Part shown: positions 7,600-16,977 of the stretch, piece by piece | Position numbering within the stretch: the first letter of the stretch is position 1 | Layout of the letters: each line of letters starts with the position of its first letter | NCBI GenBank assembly: GCA_010405405.1 | Contig: MU004242.1 | Coordinates: 162,748 to 226,747, forward strand | Length of the DNA stretch: 64,000 nucleotides | From: Microthyrium microscopicum | Lineage: Eukaryota > Ascomycota > Dothideomycetes > Microthyriales > Microthyriaceae | Reading direction: 5' to 3' | Translations under genes and position numbers: made by a program | The notes under the pieces: model-generated | What the model was told of the DNA's origin: nothing | The model's input: only the letters and a program-made list of their open reading frames with translations | Database searches by the model: none

Positions 7600-8319
7600 C
7601 TACAAACTCAGCGCATAAGCACCAACCACAGTCCCCATAACCAACACCACACATCTCAACGCATTATACTGCTTCCACCTAATCGCCAACTCCTTCGTCG
7701 AGCAACTCTCCTCTAGCTTCTTCGTGCCCTTATCTGCCAGGCTATATCTGATCACATAGCTCTGTTTCTCCGAACCGCCGGCCAATTTGTCTGCTTTGAT
7801 AGAGAGTGCGCCGTTGATGTAGCGGAGGGCTGTCCAGGCGAATGCTGTGCCGCAGCCGGTCATTAGGGTGGCGGCGATGAAGAGCTTTTGAACGAAGGAG
7901 GTTTTTGCTGTGGAGGATGTTAGTTGGGGATGGGAGTGGTAGGGATGAGAGGAACGGACCGGTGTAGGCGAGGTAGGACCAGCTGAGGATGTTGATGATT
8001 GTTGCTGGCATGGCGATCTATGGGTTTGTTAGTTTTGTGCACTAAAAGGTCGCGGTAGGCTGATGGATTGTTGGGTGGGAGACGTACTTGGAAGCCTTTC
8101 AAAAATTGTATTCGCCATTGTTTTGCCATGGTTGCTTCATCTGGCGCCATGAGGATGGCCGTCAGAGCTGCGTCTGATAGTGCCGATGCATATCCTGTCC
8201 AGATAGTTAGACGTGGTTTTGTGAGCCTCAACTGCCTGGTGTGTCATTATACCGGCAAATATTCCTGAGCTCGAAATACTGGCCACTTTAGCCAATGAGG
8301 TGAGTGAAGGTAAAGCCAT
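7600..8319 (-). CDS. DUF1772 (anthrone-oxygenase-like) membrane protein, copy A
   Basis: Four exons (8319-8253, 8194-8088, 8017-7960, 7907-7600) give 179 aa. The start MALPSLTSLAKVA is chosen over an upstream Met because the downstream paralog starts at the same place. The protein has an N-terminal small-residue hydrophobic helix (SSSGIFAGYA), a middle helix beginning IAMPATIINILSWSYLAY, and C-terminal helices around FIAATLMTGCGTAFAW and VVLVMGTVVGAYALSL. The conserved RWKQYNALR before the last helix is typical of DUF1772. Members include anthrone oxygenases of polyketide pathways, but no polyketide synthase is near, so a catalytic role is not claimed. Donors include unusual GTATAA and GTCCGT. 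Confidence 0.85.
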
Positions 8320-9286
8320 GATGATAGCCTTATGGATAAACAACTATTCTGGAAAATATATCACTTGTAAATCTGAAGCTAACAAATTTGCTTATAGCTA
8401 CAATCAAGTGCAACCGGCATTTATAAGAACACGGCATAGCGCCCAAGAGCTGGCCCGATTACGCACCTAAACAGGCAATTGGGACATGATTTAGTTGCTG
8501 TGTTGGACGATTCGCAGCTCATCAAATGGACCAGTTGCAGAAGCATGATTTGAAATGGTTCGTTGGACGGCTCGGAGCTACCGAATCAACCAGTTATGTA
8601 TACGCAACTCTGGGCCCAATTAGGACCTGACTGTCAAAGTAGGTTCGAGACTCTCTACTGCGCAGGAGATGGCGAAGAGGAAAGGAAATAAGATGATATA
8701 CATTTGTCTGGTTTTAGTTCCTTGCTTTTGTACGATACGGCAATAAATTGTGGTAAGATATCGTACATCAGATTGGTAGCGATAGCTTATAGCAGCGTGA
8801 TCTTCCACCCTCAGACATGTTGAAGCAGACATATGTTTCCACCCCAAGTACCTGAGAGGTGACAAACTATGCCCATATCGTTTTTATCTGATGTGGAATA
8901 TGCTATATGCTAATTGACTTGCTACATATAGACCACACATAACTGTTATATTGCCTTTAGATCGCTCTGCTCGCTGTTGACTAGGTTCTCATGAGTTGCA
9001 TTTCATGTGTTATACTTTACAGTGTCTCTCGACGGACAGAATAAGTGAGCCGTTTCGACGACTACTCCCACTGACTGCAATGGCTGCCATAACACTTCTT
9101 AAAGAGGGGCTGCTCTAATTACCATCATATTTGATAATCAGATTTAATGTAACTTTTACGACGCTGATAGGAATGAAAGCAATCACCCTTTAAGAAGTAA
9201 TGATAGCGTTTGAACTTTTCGCCTTCCATCAATGCTGGCTTCCGAGTAGGCTCTGACGCTGCTACGTGGTTGACTTTCCACGTTAT
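8320..9286. other. Intergenic region with an imperfect direct repeat
   Basis: No gene seen. Near 8440-8480 it shares short sequence with the region upstream of copy B (GCTGRCCGATTRCGCA-like). At 8502-8538 and 8562-8597 a block beginning GTTGGACG and ending ACCAGTT is repeated 60 bp apart. The remainder is AT-rich. Confidence 0.4.
8502..8597. repeat. Imperfect 36-bp direct repeat, spacing 60 bp
   Basis: Two copies start GTTGGACG at 8502 and 8562 and both end in CCAGTT, with roughly 75% match between. They lie about 180-280 bp upstream of DUF1772 copy A, so they may belong to its promoter. A related block (GTTGGAGAATTCCAG) lies upstream of copy B near 10739. Confidence 0.5.
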
Positions 9287-9780: not shown

Positions 9781-9872
9781 GAGTAGATGTCGAGACGGCT
9801 CAATTATTTTGTCCACGAAGAGAGTGTATTGTGAGAAGTGTTTAGTTCTATCGACGAATTCCTTCATCTTGT

Positions 9873-10564
9873 CTACAAGGCCAAAGCATAAGCACCCACG
9901 ACCGTACCAAGAAGCAAGATCACCGATCTAAACGCATTATACTGCTTCCACTTAGCCGCCAATTCCTGCGTTGAGTGTCCTGCTTCCAAGTTCTTCGTCC
10001 CGCTTTCCTTACGGCTGTAGTTCAGCGCAATACTCTGTTGCGGACCTGCCGATTTGTCTGCCTTGATCGCCAATGCACCGTTGATGTAGCGTAAAGCTGT
10101 CCAGGCAAATACTGTGCCAGAGCCGGTGGTTACGGCTGCTGTCACGAACAATTGGCGAGCGAATGTGTCCGAGGCTAGAGAAGGTTAGTCATGGTAAAAG
10201 CATGATGGGAATTACTGATAGAGAGACGGACTAATGTAGGCAAGGTAGGACCAGCTAAGGATGTTGATGACTGTTGCGGGCATGGCGATCTAAACAATCA
10301 GTTTCTGTATAGGTGAATCTCATTGCTGGAGGAGACGAACAAGGAAGCCTTTGAGATATTGGATTCGCCATTGTCGAGCTACTGTCACTTCGTCGGAAGC
10401 GGCGATTATCGCGGGCATAGCTGCGTCTGATAGTGCCCAAGTATATCCTTGAACTGTCAATTATGACTTTCTATTTATCCTTGGAGAAATATCTTACCTG
10501 CAAATATTCCTGAACTCGATATACCCGCAACTTTGGCTAAGGAGGTGAGTGTGGGTAGTGCCAT
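9873..10564 (-). CDS. DUF1772 (anthrone-oxygenase-like) membrane protein, copy B
   Basis: Four exons (10564-10498, 10447-10341, 10289-10232, 10174-9873) give 177 aa. The first three exons are 67, 107 and 58 nt, exactly the lengths in copy A, and every intron keeps its phase, so the pair arose by tandem duplication. Shared blocks include MALPTLTSLAKVAGISSSG, QWRIQ.LKGF, FAWTALRYINGAL, KWKQYNA.R and GTVVGAYAL. The least conserved part is the soluble loop after the third helix (about residues 120-145). The second intron starts GTTCGT and the third GTCCGT, both non-consensus donors. Four-helix membrane protein; enzymatic activity unproven. Confidence 0.85.
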
Positions 10565-11157
10565 AATGATAGATAATAGAAATTCACATGCAACAAATAT
10601 TAGAAATCTCAAAAACTGTCAAGTGAACGAGAGATCGTAGGGTCTATTCAAGTGAAAACCGATCAGTATTTATCAAAAATGGATACATTATCAGGGCTGA
10701 CCGATTGCGCAGTCATTGGGGACGTTTCGGCCGCTTTGTTGGAGAATTCCAGAACTCGGCGAATCAGCATTAAATAGTTCTTACATGTGCATGTGTTGGC
10801 CCCATCTTCAGCCTGATTGTCATTTACACCAAGTCTCGCCGCCGTCTTGGAACACAATTAGTGAAATAAGCAGAAAAAATAAAGACAAATAGATTGGATG
10901 GGGGCTGGGAAAGGAGTTTGCATTCCGCTACCTCTGGATTTCGGCGGAGATGAGACATATTTGGATCATAGGTTGCGATTGACCTCTTGAAAATCGACAG
11001 TGGAGTTCTGACAATGAGGATAATAATGCAGAGTATGGTTGGCGGGAGGTTACGAAATTGAAGGCAGAAGAGGAATGTTCTATAAGAATTACAATTCGCT
11101 TCTCGATAGTTGAAATTGATGAACAAAAGGAAGTCAAAGAGCTAATATACACAACAA
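10565..11157. promoter_or_regulatory. Upstream region of DUF1772 copy B
   Basis: Gene-free. The part next to 10564 carries the copy B promoter, with a CCGATTGCGCA motif near 10700 that is also seen upstream of copy A. The right part is the 3' flank of the large ORF ending at 11158. Confidence 0.4.
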
Positions 11158-14100
11158 CTACCACCCCTCAAATATCGAATCCATCTTCTTCAGCAACTCC
11201 TCCTCCTTGACTTTACGTGACTTGGACAAATCATCCGGCGAAGGAGTGGGCTTCAACTGATTTAAGCTTGTCGATGAATTGGATACAGTCCCTTCCAATA
11301 CCGCCAAACCGGCAAACACTGTTTGCGAAATGTCCCTCGATATGATCCGTGGCTGCTTTTGGGTGAAGGAAGCAGAACCAGGTTTCTTCTTCCGTTCCAA
11401 TTTCGCTGCATTCAACAACGCATCCAAATCATCATCGTCAGTTCTCTGTGCCCTTTTTGCCGACACATCAGTATGCGGCTCCTTGACCAGGTGTCCCAGC
11501 TGCGCAATAGCCTCACTACGAGCACCCCAATCGACGTCTGCCTCTGATTCAGGAGCTTCACGAAGCAGCGACTCCAGATCATCTTCCCACTCAGCAAGCC
11601 TGTGGCCAGCTTTGGTTCGGACAGGGCGGGCCTTGGGCAGTGTACCTGCCGAGAGCAGGAATCTCAACATCCACGGATTCTTTATCGCTTGGTGAGCTGC
11701 TGCAGCGAGTTGCAGCTGTTGAGAACTTTCACGGTAGTCGGGCCGAACGGTTGGATATTGCACCATTCGCAGTTTGTGCGATAGCTTCAAGGCTTTATCT
11801 CTAGCAGCTCTGTATGCTTGTTCGCGGGAGCGAGACCTCATCATACCAACGACATGTCGTCGGATAGGAGGGCCTCTTGGGCTGAGATCAGAATTCACGC
11901 GATTTAATACAGGAGACGTAAGTACAGGAGTAAACCCATACTTGAGCATGCTGTGGTTCTGTTGCCACGGATTTTGATGCTTCGCCAATGATCGGAAACC
12001 CCTGGTCTTGCTCTTAAATCGTCGAACTTGGATGCTCAGCTTCGACCGTGGAGCAGTTCGCTCACGTCGAACTTTTATGCGTATCATCTGGCTTACAGAG
12101 GGGCCATTGCCGCGAACGACTAGCCTCACTGTGGGATCTGGGGAGGCAGTGCTGGCAAAATACTTCCGTGAGAGACTGCCATCTTGCTCCTGCTTGCGTC
12201 GCTTTGACCATGATCTGGTAAGTATAGCCTCGTCCGATAGAAGCTTATCATATGCGTGTTGGAACAAGATTCTGGCTTTTTTATAATAAGACTGCAGATG
12301 TTGCTTCGCGGCTGCTTGATATCGGCGGCGTCTGAGGTGCCGATCTGGCATTTTCCTGGAGACGATTGGCGGTCTGTGTATGGGATCGTACTTTGACAGA
12401 AGACTATTAACCTGCCTTATTGTGGTATGCTTACTCTCGGAATGGACAGAGGTGTGACGTGTGATTGACAGGAACTTGCCGGAACTGGGTGATGGCTTAC
12501 TATCGGATAGGCGTTTTGTTAGGTAACTGCCAGCTTGCCTTGGACTAGGAGACTCGGCATAGACAGAAGGTTCCTCTTTGTTTGTGTTGTGAAGGGAGAT
12601 CCGAGCTTTGGGTACCTTGTACATGGTTAAGGCAGGCTTAGAGGATGTATCAGGCCATGTGCGGTGCCTCCGGATGGTGTGAAATTTCGAGAGCGTCCGC
12701 GAGATCCGAAGTCTGGGTGCCTCATACATGGCAAGACCAGGCTTAGGAGACTTAGCAGGCCGTCTGCGTTGCTTCTGGATAGTGGGAGATGTCGGGAACT
12801 TCCGCACAGGGGGTTTCCCCAGGCCTGATGGTACTTTGCGTTGCAAAAGAGCGGAAAAGATATGCTCTTTCAGCTTGGGATGGGAGGCTGGCCAAAGAAC
12901 AGAAGCCGCATCAACGAATCGGCTATCAACAACAGCTTCGTGTTTTTCAATAATTCGCACAAAAGGCATAACTGTGATTTCGGTGACCCAGGCCTTTGCG
13001 TTGCTGCTGGGTGGAAAGCTGCCAATAACAAGATCTTCTGTATTCTGTTGATTCCACGAATTATCAAGCGGGAACCAGTTAAGATCGAAGTTCTTAGAAT
13101 AAAACGGGTCGTTGAAGAAAGCTATGCTCTCAGGCTTCAATGGTTTGAAATTCGAATCCTGGGTATCAATCTCTTGAGTTATATCCAAATTTTGGGCAGA
13201 AGAAGATGAAGGACTATCCATCGTAATATCTTTGCCAAGATGAAGCATGTTGCCCAGACTACACTGTCTCCAGGATAGATCTGCCGTCTTGTCGAGAAAG
13301 GATGTGTCATTCTTTGGTAGAGCAGGCTGTGATAGTTGCGAATGAAATTCTAAAGGCATGTCCTGTCCCTTTTTAATCGGTGAGCCTTTTGAGATGGAAA
13401 ACTGTGTCTTCCGTTTCTCGATATTTTCAACCAGCGTATGTTTACGCAAGACCAGATGAGTAAGACCTTTTTTTATGATCATGCGCCTTGGTTGTTCAAA
13501 GAGCTCCAGATGTGGAATTATTGGTTCCTGAGTGTTGGGTTGATTCTTAGTTGCCTTCAACGCTTTTCGCATCTCCTTCCGCATCTTATTCCGTTCCTTG
13601 AGTCTTTCGAATCTCTGTTCCATTAACTGTGGCACCGGCCTTTTCCACATGGCCATATTGTGCTCTGTTGCACGGGGTGCACGTGGTTTTCTGATCTCCA
13701 AAAGATTTGTTGTCGTTGAAATTTTGAACCGCTCCGATGGTCGCTGCTGACCGAGTTGGTATTGACTTCCATTTGCAATCAACGACTGTTTCTCAAGCGC
13801 TTCGACGCGCAATTCCGTGCCTTCTCCTTCCTCGTGTTTTTCAAAGAGCTCACGTTTCTCTGCCACGGATGGTTTTGCTGCCTTCTTAAGCGCATGGTTA
13901 AACAAATGTGCAGTCCGGGTGGGCATTTCAGCTGTTGCATGTCGTATGATGTTCACGACTGGCACTTCGACTTGTCCTGAATTCAATTCGTGGCTTTCAA
14001 CGGCAGAGAAACCATGCTGCTTTGTCGGCAGGTTTTTTGTGGACCACTTGGAAATCTTAGGAGTTGGGTTGGCAGTTGTGTTGACTACTTCAATAAAACT

Positions 14101-14292
14101 GTCAAGCCCTCTCCAAGCTTCCAGTGACCTTCTCGCTGCAGCCGCATTTTGACTGTCGGGTTTCTTCTCGATCATTTGACTTGAATGCTTGAGCGACTTC
14201 ATGATCCAAGATTGCCACCGTTGCTTGATTTTATCCCTTTCAGACTGCAGGTCATTAGATGGTGAGTCCTTAGACACCAAGTCCTTAGACAT
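11158..14292 (-). CDS. Large basic ORF, in frame after the poly(A) polymerase stop, 1044 codons
   Basis: I do not recognise a domain. The frame is uninterrupted for 1044 codons from ATG 14292. It is Lys/Arg/Ser-rich with predicted-disorder character, has clusters such as KERNKMRKEMRKALK, an internal repeat (AMYEAPRLRIS near residue 525, TMYKVPKARIS near 558), a more ordered stretch around AWVTEITVMPFVRIIEKHE (near 430-450) and an acidic-helical tail ending KKMDSIFEGW. Its ATG is only 24 nt beyond the stop of the poly(A) polymerase and in the same reading frame, and the eight codons between are open (LGDGDEDS). It may be a C-terminal extension reached by readthrough, the second half of a broken fused gene, or an independent gene with its promoter inside its neighbour. 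Confidence 0.8.
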   Translation of the reverse strand: MSKDLVSKDSPSNDLQSERDKIKQRWQSWIMKSLKHSSQMIEKKPDSQNAAAARRSLEAWRGLDSFIEVVNTTANPTPKISKWSTKNLPTKQHGFSAVESHELNSGQVEVPVVNIIRHATAEMPTRTAHLFNHALKKAAKPSVAEKRELFEKHEEGEGTELRVEALEKQSLIANGSQYQLGQQRPSERFKISTTTNLLEIRKPRAPRATEHNMAMWKRPVPQLMEQRFERLKERNKMRKEMRKALKATKNQPNTQEPIIPHLELFEQPRRMIIKKGLTHLVLRKHTLVENIEKRKTQFSISKGSPIKKGQDMPLEFHSQLSQPALPKNDTSFLDKTADLSWRQCSLGNMLHLGKDITMDSPSSSSAQNLDITQEIDTQDSNFKPLKPESIAFFNDPFYSKNFDLNWFPLDNSWNQQNTEDLVIGSFPPSSNAKAWVTEITVMPFVRIIEKHEAVVDSRFVDAASVLWPASHPKLKEHIFSALLQRKVPSGLGKPPVRKFPTSPTIQKQRRRPAKSPKPGLAMYEAPRLRISRTLSKFHTIRRHRTWPDTSSKPALTMYKVPKARISLHNTNKEEPSVYAESPSPRQAGSYLTKRLSDSKPSPSSGKFLSITRHTSVHSESKHTTIRQVNSLLSKYDPIHRPPIVSRKMPDRHLRRRRYQAAAKQHLQSYYKKARILFQHAYDKLLSDEAILTRSWSKRRKQEQDGSLSRKYFASTASPDPTVRLVVRGNGPSVSQMIRIKVRRERTAPRSKLSIQVRRFKSKTRGFRSLAKHQNPWQQNHSMLKYGFTPVLTSPVLNRVNSDLSPRGPPIRRHVVGMMRSRSREQAYRAARDKALKLSHKLRMVQYPTVRPDYRESSQQLQLAAAAHQAIKNPWMLRFLLSAGTLPKARPVRTKAGHRLAEWEDDLESLLREAPESEADVDWGARSEAIAQLGHLVKEPHTDVSAKRAQRTDDDDLDALLNAAKLERKKKPGSASFTQKQPRIISRDISQTVFAGLAVLEGTVSNSSTSLNQLKPTPSPDDLSKSRKVKEEELLKKMDSIFEGW

Positions 14293-14312
14293 CGAGTCCT
14301 CATCACCATCAC

Positions 14313-14319
14313 CTAGTCA
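14313..14319 (-). promoter_or_regulatory. TGA-CTA-G stop context, candidate readthrough site
   Basis: On the - strand the poly(A) polymerase frame ends CCG TGA CTA GGT. UGA followed by CUA (best with G next) is the established high-readthrough context of eukaryotic mRNAs, used by human AQP4, MAPK10, LDHB and MDH1 and by fungal peroxisomal isoforms. Here the frame downstream stays open for 1052 codons. Recoding itself is inference. Confidence 0.5.
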
Positions 14320-16977
14320 CGGACTTTGCGGCGATTCGTCCGACAGGGCTGAAGATTGCTGTGTTTTGGAGGTAGCAGTGTTGTTATTTGAACCATTCTT
14401 GCTGGAAAGATCGGAATCCTTGAACCGAAGCCCGCCCTTTTCATTGCTGAATCGAATAAGACTGCGAGCAATGCGGGCTCTTCGTCGTTGGCCTTGATGA
14501 TTGCGTGTCCACGGCGACGATGAAAACTGCCGTCGCTGCTCTATCGAACCAGTCACCTGCGATTGTGTGCTCGCAGATTGTGTACTTGTCGGCGGTGCTT
14601 GAAACGGGTCCGGCACAATTTCCAACAATGAGGTGTCTGTCAGCTCTTCAGGATTGTCAATCGTCTCCAAATCTTGGAAGCCATCATCCGGCACCTGACT
14701 AGCTACGCTGGTTTTGTCCTCTGGTATATCCTCAAGTGAGAGAATTCGTTCGTTTGTCTTCAACTTTCCATCGTGCACGAGTCCCCGCCCATACTCCTGG
14801 CCACGCTGACGATCTTTCGAGAAAGTGGCATGATAATCGCCTAAAGCTGTATCCAAGAAAGTTTGTAGGCCATCACCCTGCTCTGAGAGTTCCAATTTTC
14901 CAGTAAGGTCCTTGTGCAGAAATCTGAAAGTGGCAGCGATGTGTTTCCATTCAAAGGTCTTGTGGCCCAGATCGTTGTGTTTGTCGGCCGGATCTTGGAT
15001 GCAAGGCAGAAATTGCATAGTTGGATTGGCCAAAGTAAGCTCAGCGAGAGCATGTTCATAGCGCTGCTCGTTTGTGTTTGGGTAAGGTAGGGGTGGAATG
15101 TCGGTGACTTGCTTCAACTTTGGTCTCAGAGTTCCTAGCGGAGAAGCACAAACTGCCAGATGGTAAGTATCGAGATTGCCCCAGTAATCCAGATATTTCA
15201 GCAAGTTTTGTGTGAGACCAGTATTTGCCGAATCCTGGAGTTTGAGAGTGGTAGCAACCATTACGACCAAAGGATACGAACCAAGGCCCCCAGAGAAAAC
15301 ATCGGTCAGACCACGGATATGGAGCATAGACTTGATGAAAGCATACATGGGTCGAAAATGTGCATGTTTTTGATAGCCCTTGACCAGAGAAATTGGGATT
15401 TTACTGGTGTTGCATGCGACAACCTGAACAAGAACCCCGGAACGCTTATGCACAGTCGTAATCAATGGGTATCTGGCATACACAAGTTTTGGCCAAGTGA
15501 ATCCTTGTTTAGGCAAATTGGTTCCGATAGCACGTAGCAATTTGAAGGCTTTGAGTTTGGCAGCCCTGCTGGGAGACCACCATGTCTCGGAATTATTCTT
15601 GTCGTAAACTCGGATATCAACATCGGATGTCGCAAGTGCAGTACCAGTGACAGTAGACCCAAATATTTGAGACTTGTACTGTCCACCTGAAGCATATATC
15701 TTTTTGGAAACCAGGCTGACAGTTGTCTTGATTATGTTGGCGACTACCAGCCGACTAGCAGCTTCTTCAGTGGTTGGGTACGCATACTGGGAGAATTGTT
15801 CGATTTCAGCCTCCAGCCCGGCAGTCCCTTTGAGAGGACTGTCGTCTGTAAGCCAAGGATATTGAGGGAGATCTTCAGTGACTGCATCGGGCAATGCGCG
15901 TGGCTGTACGGCAAGTCCAGTATAATCCAACTGGCTATTGTTTTCTTCTGAATTGCTAACTGTTGCAACAATTTTCGAGGCGTCGATATCGCCATAGAAG
16001 CTGAGATGACCAAACACGGCCTGCCCCTTCTTGAATTTTGCAAAAGGGGATTTTATATGGCTTTGCCCACTATCATCTCGAGATATAGTTCTGTACGATA
16101 TAGGCACTCGTTGTGTCTGAATTTTCGACCCGTTGAACAGCGCTTCTGATGGAGGACCAAGAGCGGCGTTGCCATCAGTCTGGTCGAGGAGCTTTGATAT
16201 TTTCGAAGGCGCCCCAGGTACTGTCGGAGTAGTATCAAGGGTTTCATTACGACCATACTCGTTGTGATTGGTATAGTATAGTACTCGCTTCATAGGACTT
16301 TCAGGATTCTTGGGTCTCGTATTTCCATTAAGAGGTCTTATAACTCCATACGAGCTTTTGGCACCTCGCGCGGGAGGTGAAGCAGGTTGGTTGTCGGGTT
16401 CGATAATACTTCGCATAGACTGTGACGGCTGGTTCCAGAAAAGTGAGAATTGATCAGTCTTCCCATCTAAGAGTTTTGCACGCATAGGTACAGTTTGAGC
16501 CGTGGAGCCTTCATCTTTTGGTAAAAGAAGTTTGCGCACTGGTTTCTTTACATGAATTGATGATTTGCCCAACAAGAGCTTACGATCAAAAGTGTTCTTC
16601 ACGCTGCCATCTGATGGGCTCTGGTGAATTGGGGATGACAAATGCCGCTCGGATGATGTAGCATATTTCTTCTTCCGTGTCTCTGTAGACCCCCTTGCAG
16701 TTGATAATCTTGTGCTTTCCCGTTTTTCTTTGGGCGCGGGTTGACTGAGCCGGTTTTTCTGTCGCAGTTCTTGAAGAGCTTGGAGGAGTCGACCGCCCGT
16801 GGCAGTACTTGCTACCTGTGTATCGTCGCTGCCTTGAACATGAGTCGCCGACTGGGAGGCATAGTAACGAGCGAATGATAGGGGTTTGGGATTGTGTATG
16901 AAGATATCACGAAGGGCGTGATGAAGGCTAAAGGCATTGATGGACAGGCAAGCCGCCTGGTGGCGAGCAAGCGGCAT
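14317..16977 (-). CDS. Mitochondrial non-canonical poly(A) polymerase, 886 aa
   Basis: Nucleotidyltransferase of the Cid1/PAPD1 class, expected to add A tails to RNA in mitochondria. The N terminus is rich in Arg/Ser/His and lacks acidic residues (MPLARHQAACLSINAF, then FARYYASQS), a good matrix-targeting sequence. The catalytic domain starts near residue 435: GSTVTGTALATSDVDIRVYD has the GS motif and the first two catalytic Asp (DVD). The central domain follows with YAFIKSMLHIRGL and GGLGSYPLVVMV near 560-585, and a PAP-associated segment with ..EWKHIAATFRFL. The first 400 residues and last 100 are low complexity. No introns. The gene is divergent from DENND6. The stop is TGA-CTA-G (see separate entry), and the next ORF continues in the same frame. 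Confidence 0.88.
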   Translation of the reverse strand: MPLARHQAACLSINAFSLHHALRDIFIHNPKPLSFARYYASQSATHVQGSDDTQVASTATGGRLLQALQELRQKNRLSQPAPKEKRESTRLSTARGSTETRKKKYATSSERHLSSPIHQSPSDGSVKNTFDRKLLLGKSSIHVKKPVRKLLLPKDEGSTAQTVPMRAKLLDGKTDQFSLFWNQPSQSMRSIIEPDNQPASPPARGAKSSYGVIRPLNGNTRPKNPESPMKRVLYYTNHNEYGRNETLDTTPTVPGAPSKISKLLDQTDGNAALGPPSEALFNGSKIQTQRVPISYRTISRDDSGQSHIKSPFAKFKKGQAVFGHLSFYGDIDASKIVATVSNSEENNSQLDYTGLAVQPRALPDAVTEDLPQYPWLTDDSPLKGTAGLEAEIEQFSQYAYPTTEEAASRLVVANIIKTTVSLVSKKIYASGGQYKSQIFGSTVTGTALATSDVDIRVYDKNNSETWWSPSRAAKLKAFKLLRAIGTNLPKQGFTWPKLVYARYPLITTVHKRSGVLVQVVACNTSKIPISLVKGYQKHAHFRPMYAFIKSMLHIRGLTDVFSGGLGSYPLVVMVATTLKLQDSANTGLTQNLLKYLDYWGNLDTYHLAVCASPLGTLRPKLKQVTDIPPLPYPNTNEQRYEHALAELTLANPTMQFLPCIQDPADKHNDLGHKTFEWKHIAATFRFLHKDLTGKLELSEQGDGLQTFLDTALGDYHATFSKDRQRGQEYGRGLVHDGKLKTNERILSLEDIPEDKTSVASQVPDDGFQDLETIDNPEELTDTSLLEIVPDPFQAPPTSTQSASTQSQVTGSIEQRRQFSSSPWTRNHQGQRRRARIARSLIRFSNEKGGLRFKDSDLSSKNGSNNNTATSKTQQSSALSDESPQSP

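Follow-up and report, generated by a model that had tools for sequence, protein, structure and literature searches.

A candidate UGA-CUAG readthrough stop between a nucleotidyltransferase-like ORF and a 1,052-codon extension in Microthyrium microscopicum

In the ascomycete Microthyrium microscopicum, an ORF for a Trf4/mtPAP-type nucleotidyltransferase-like protein (ORF1) and a further 1,052 open codons (ORF2) lie in one reading frame, interrupted by a single TGA that is followed directly by CTAG. Programmed UGA-CUAG readthrough, giving 886-aa and 1,939-aa forms of one protein, is probably the best explanation of this arrangement. It had been proposed in a sequence-only reading of the same DNA, and among the explanations that can be tested by sequence it fared best, as no usable intron was found, the stop context is fitting, and the shared frame is intact. 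Our confidence is held down because no orthologue was seen in scans of prokaryote genomes and viral contigs and the claim rests on sequence.

One frame on both sides of a TGA-CTAG stop

The window analyzed here is the whole stretch of 64,000 nucleotides. Read with the standard code, its minus strand from 16977 to 11158 is a single frame of 1,940 codons with two stops only, the TGA at codon 887 (14319 to 14317) and a TAG at codon 1940 (11160 to 11158) (Table 1). The 886 sense codons of ORF1 (16977 to 14320) and the 1,052 open codons that follow its stop (14316 to 11161) have this frame in common. The junction reads CAA AGT CCG TGA CTA GGT GAT GGT GAT, and the first ATG after the stop, at 14292, is separated from it by a gap of 24 nt in which all eight codons are open and would encode LGDGDEDS. 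The shared frame with TGA-CTA-G between the two ORFs and the 24-nt gap had both been described in the sequence-only reading, and both descriptions are exact. The stop sits within a Ser-rich acidic tail C-terminal to the catalytic region of ORF1 (residues 741 to 886; pI 4.89; 47% S/T/P/Q/N).

For comparison, we used 264 kb of DNA comprising the window and positions 100001 to 300000 of contig C8. Seven pairs of open stretches of at least 150 codons each are split there by one in-frame stop. The ORF1/ORF2 pair is by far the largest (906 and 1,052 codons), and the runner-up (326 and 250 codons) is accounted for by a standard intron (score, 20.3). At the local base composition, 1,052 open codons in a row would be expected with a log10 probability of about -23; the other two frames of this strand stay open for at most 96 and 68 codons.

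Table 1. Features of the ORF1/ORF2 locus (positions in the window)
Feature	Position	Strand	Basis
ORF1, MTPAP/Trf4-like nucleotidyltransferase, 886 aa, ending TGA	14317..16977	-	PF22600, PF01909, 3nyb
Probable mitochondrial leader, residues 1-45, including SFARYYASQ	16843..16977	-	Composition, 4 K/R vs 1 D/E
Nucleotidyltransferase region aligned to 3nyb, residues 372-582	15232..15864	-	PDB match, alignment
Active-site motif GS-x(10)-DVD, residues 440-454	15616..15660	-	Alignment, sequence
Gln518 at third catalytic Asp position	15424..15426	-	Alignment to 3nyb and C11 homologue
Candidate leaky stop codon TGA	14317..14319	-	Frame translation
CTAG directly 3' of stop, completing UGA-CUAG	14313..14316	-	Motif (PMC4132726, PMC12233894)
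Possible hairpin 6 nt 3' of stop, 8-bp stem GAUGGUGA/UCACCAUC	14258..14310	-	60-nt fold
Proposed readthrough extension, 1,052 open codons then TAG; first ATG 14292	11158..14316	-	ORF1 frame

Programmed readthrough of this type is marked by UGA followed by CUA and best by CUAG, and the sequence at 14319 to 14313 is TGA CTA G. UGA-CUAG is a published high-readthrough motif (PMC4132726; PMC12233894). Four efficient mammalian readthrough genes carry it, UGA-CUA alone gave 1.5% (PMC4132726), and in Ustilago maydis CUA after UGA is sufficient for readthrough (PMC4207609). Among 54 uncurated open segments of at least 300 codons, TGA-CTA ends the ORF1 segment alone. When every TGA word in the 264 kb is counted, on either strand, the next bases are CTA in 0.95% of cases and CTAG in 0.21%. 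Many windows were scanned and coincidences are expected, so the weight of the motif is somewhat lower. The upstream context is mixed: in mammalian cells a G just before the stop, as is present here, is described as favorable, but the upstream CCG has none of the adenines described as helping readthrough in yeast at -1 and -2 (PMC12233894).

The fold of the 60 nt after the stop, which contains the possible hairpin, has a z of -2.01, matched by 6 of 200 shuffles. Random coding 60-mers folded as well in 37 of 1,080 cases and also had an equal stem in 8 of 1,080. For the 120 nt after the stop, z is only -0.45, and the hairpin counts for little because the 60-nt span was picked post hoc, once the 120-nt fold had been seen. 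A search of Rfam with positions 13800 to 14900 returned nothing at the gathering score.

Predicted proteins before and after the stop

ORF1 matched the MTPAP-like palm domain PF22600 (E value, 2.7e-7; 31.2 bits against a cut-off of 27) and PF01909 (4.6e-4) in Pfam and the yeast Trf4-type structure 3nyb in the PDB (5.6e-7). The palm domain with GS...DxD that is expected of an active Trf4/mtPAP-type poly(A) polymerase is present, and we take the GS-x(10)-DVD of ORF1 to contain the first two catalytic acids of the Trf4 family. The third catalytic Asp, also expected of an active enzyme, is absent. The position reads VLVQVV, and Gln518 aligns there to an Ala of the 3nyb chain, presumably an engineered replacement of the catalytic Asp, whereas the Trf4 homologue on contig C11 of the same genome has Asp at the equivalent position (VDISF). 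ORF1 has the palm domain, the GS...DVD motif, and the 3nyb homology in common with the Trf4/Cid1/mtPAP family but differs from it in Gln518 and in the very long N-terminal and post-stop regions of this gene. ORF1 is a Trf4/mtPAP-type family member, its enzyme activity is in doubt, and it may be a pseudoenzyme, given Gln518 in place of the third catalytic Asp. The product had been called a poly(A) polymerase in the sequence-only reading; PF22600 and 3nyb uphold the name as a family label and not as an activity, because the third catalytic carboxylate is replaced. From the composition of its leader (Table 1), the ORF1 product is probably targeted to mitochondria.

The predicted ORF2 product is basic (pI 10.24; 184 K+R versus 111 D+E), most of all in residues 451 to 900 (three 150-residue blocks of pI 11.0 to 12.0). 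Compared with Pfam as a whole and in five pieces, it matched no family above the cut-off; the matches below it were to FapA_N (E value, 0.074 for the whole and 0.0062 for a piece) and DUF4923 (0.11). It had no match in the PDB, and AlphaFold2, run on ORF2 alone as a single sequence, gave an unusable model (mean pLDDT, 41.9). The extension had earlier been suggested to be basic and possibly RNA binding; its basic character was borne out, whereas neither Pfam nor the PDB revealed a recognizable domain. The C terminus, FEGW, is not a peroxisomal signal.

ORF2 has a codon score of 0.047 (ORF1, 0.083), inside the spread of values from 52 further long open segments (minimum, -0.075; 5% point, 0.011; median, 0.103). 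With both ORFs divided into blocks of 100 codons, the true frame was the top-scoring one in 7 of 10 for ORF2 and in 8 of 8 for ORF1. The extension therefore has an ordinary though weak codon bias, weakest in the middle of the ORF, and we judge it to be coding because of its length. If ORF2 were untranslated, ~68 substitutions (2.1% per site) would bring a 95% chance of a stop; that it contains none despite this expectation suggests that translation is ongoing or has recently ended.

Scans of prokaryote genomes and viral contigs confirmed no relatives of ORF1 or ORF2. The search of the fungus's own genome covered 36.9 Mb in 20 contigs, with only the best candidates scored; among these, ORF1 had one other match at an E value of ≤0.001, on C11, and ORF2 had no second copy.

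Alternative explanations of the interrupted frame

The matrices used to score introns were built from 40 introns of the same genome, which themselves scored 12.9 to 25.8, values that are flattered since these introns were selected partly by consensus. A looser intron-collecting pattern was dropped, as its 296 matches against 292 in reversed sequence gave no separation. At the junction, a donor-like GTCCGT spans the last codons of ORF1, and TCTAAT and CTGCAG end a possible intron 80 nt on. Its score of 13.4 is just above that of the lowest training intron; however, it shifts the frame, and the protein would end at 885 aa. The sequence-only reading had put forward this intron and its frameshift, and both are there. 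Among candidate introns that span the stop and keep the frame, the best (GTGACT...GAAAG; 84 nt) scores 7.8, and of 144 random coding positions, 38% do as well or better. For the six other one-stop pairs, the best in-frame introns score 9.4 to 23.7, those at 20.3, 22.3, and 23.7 being plain introns and those at 9.4, 13.2, and 14.4 not clear. We also found, in the 264 kb, seven same-strand pairs of ATG-started ORFs of at least 200 codons each with a gap of 0 to 100 nt (three overlapping pairs were left out of this count). Frame-joining introns are present in six of the seven (17.2, 18.9, 20.3, 21.5, 23.7, and 24.2), four of them belonging to the training set and those at 17.2 and 18.9 not; the best for ORF1/ORF2 scores 9.5 and is an unlikely 240-nt intron. 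An intron across the TGA was rejected by score and frame, so that the interruption is not explained by splicing as far as sequence can tell. An intron joining ORF1 and ORF2 thus appears very unlikely, and we give hardly any credence to removal of the TGA by alternative or constitutive splicing. Still less do we expect the frames to be joined by editing of the UGA in the RNA or by some other event not listed here, as no positive sign of editing was found and the stop context makes it unnecessary.

The shared frame and the intact ORF2 would both be accounted for if a fused single-frame gene had lately acquired a nonsense mutation, or if the stop were an error of sequencing or assembly, the 1,052 codons then being either a fresh relic or translated. 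In Podospora anserina, 14 genes seemingly need frameshift or readthrough and some are considered possible first steps to pseudogenes; the authors discounted sequencing errors, and four of the 14 have conserved sites (PMC2441463). This 14-gene table may include the present gene. However, the 748 single-base nonsense changes possible in the merged frame include 149 that make TGA, 10 that make TGA-CT, and none that makes TGA-CTA. Since this context is so rare by accident (0 of 748, and 0.95% of TGA words), a chance nonsense mutation fits poorly, and the absence of any further stop in the 1,052 codons also speaks against this explanation, which we consider unlikely. Somewhat less probable still is that two proteins are made separately, the ATG 24 nt past the stop being the start of a second gene that is expressed either through a promoter of its own within ORF1 or as part of a dicistronic mRNA. 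An in-frame ATG does lie close behind the stop, some mushroom-forming fungi make polycistronic transcripts on a wide scale (PMC4503453), and a dicistronic mRNA is possible. Nevertheless, 24 nt is too small a gap for a transcription end and start, UTRs, and a promoter, and each of the six other gaps of 0 to 100 nt within the 264 kb is bridged by a frame-joining intron. In the polycistronic pairs of Plicaturopsis crispa, every frame is closed by stops between one ORF and the next (PMC4503453), whereas here the ORF1 frame is open from the TGA to the second ATG. A or G occupies position -3 in 39 of 50 other long open segments, counted at their first ATG, whereas the second ATG has T, although ORF1 too starts at an ATG with T at -3. 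The N terminus that would start from the second ATG (MSKDLVSKDSPSND) is unlike a mitochondrial leader, and with two genes TGA-CTAG would have to be a coincidence.

Other gene ends, known recoding systems, and a proposed mechanism

As a positive control for TGA-CTA readthrough in the same genome, the ends of four central enzyme genes were inspected, and the lack of TGA-CTA in all four is a point against readthrough; their stop contexts are TAG-ATT (PGK), TAG-GAT (GAPDH), TGA-CAT (RPE), and TAA-AGT (TPI, by eye across an intron). At the GAPDH 3' end (L006, G000:C3, ~2105 to 2190), GNA TAG is followed by 12 open codons, DIGRSQTESSRL, ending in SRL, a classic peroxisomal targeting signal, and GAPDH TAG-GAT is likely a second recoding case in this genome. 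Past RRA TGA, the ribulose-phosphate 3-epimerase 3' end (L028, G000:C1) reads HEDKGKL and then a stop, GKL being a weak peroxisomal-signal-like end. The PGK stop (L003, G000:C8, end 2261) coincides in part with a strong donor, GTAAGTAG, which looks as though alternative splicing altered the PGK C terminus; splicing of this donor to each AG 42 to 260 nt on gave five short tails with no peroxisomal signal. In the window itself, the neighboring minus-strand genes at 7600 to 8330 and 9870 to 10570 have alike starts by eye (MALPTLTSLAKVAGISSSGIFA and MALPSLTSLAKVASISSSGIFA) and, lying downstream of the ORF1/ORF2 locus, appear to be tandem duplicates.

Very long in-frame second ORFs are made by readthrough in Drosophila headcase and kelch. 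The present gene resembles these in its long second ORF, but the proteins are others and the host there is an animal. In the peroxisomal enzymes of fungi and animals, readthrough of UGA-CUA(G) adds a peroxisomal signal (PMC4207609); the stop and the bases 3' of it are the same in our gene, whereas the extension has 1,052 codons and no such signal. The seven bases UGACUAG are identical to those of mammalian OPRK1, OPRL1, AQP4, and MAPK10, the last of which has a readthrough extension of 13 residues; the mammalian motif is conserved across vertebrates (PMC4132726). A precedent for recoding across two ORFs in filamentous ascomycetes is PaYIP3, in which the 5' ORF is conserved and the 3' ORF joined to it is less so and confined to Pezizomycotina (PMC3777964), an arrangement like the one proposed here; PaYIP3 uses a -1 frameshift with a pseudoknot, however, whereas here a stop is proposed to be read as sense. 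Among the matches listed in the open-licence literature, none concerned readthrough of a fungal nucleotidyltransferase gene, and the available part of PMC5100048 contained no relevant information on fungi.

With readthrough as the preferred explanation, one gene would give two proteins from what we infer to be one mRNA. The UGA (14319 to 14317) would terminate most ribosomes and yield the 886-aa nucleotidyltransferase-like protein. In a presumed minority, a near-cognate tRNA would decode the UGA because CUAG follows, possibly aided by the hairpin 6 nt downstream. These ribosomes would reach the UAG (11160 to 11158) and produce a form of ~1,939 aa whose tail is long and basic, and the shared N terminus would carry this form to mitochondria. 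Rather doubtfully, one may imagine a conserved fungal ratio switch in which UGA-CUAG readthrough puts the basic 1,052-residue tail on a fixed share of a catalytically altered (Asp-to-Gln) mitochondrial nucleotidyltransferase, with the tail as an RNA- or ribosome-binding scaffold. Such a switch, if true, would tie mitochondrial RNA metabolism to cytosolic translation accuracy.

If the stop is read through, the protein more than doubles in length, and gene finders would split or truncate a gene of such build. The fungal cases described in PMC4207609 add peroxisomal targeting tails, and a thousand-residue tail on a predicted mitochondrial RNA enzyme departs from them. If the proposal is true, the choice made at leaky stops in fungi can extend to the architecture of the whole protein.
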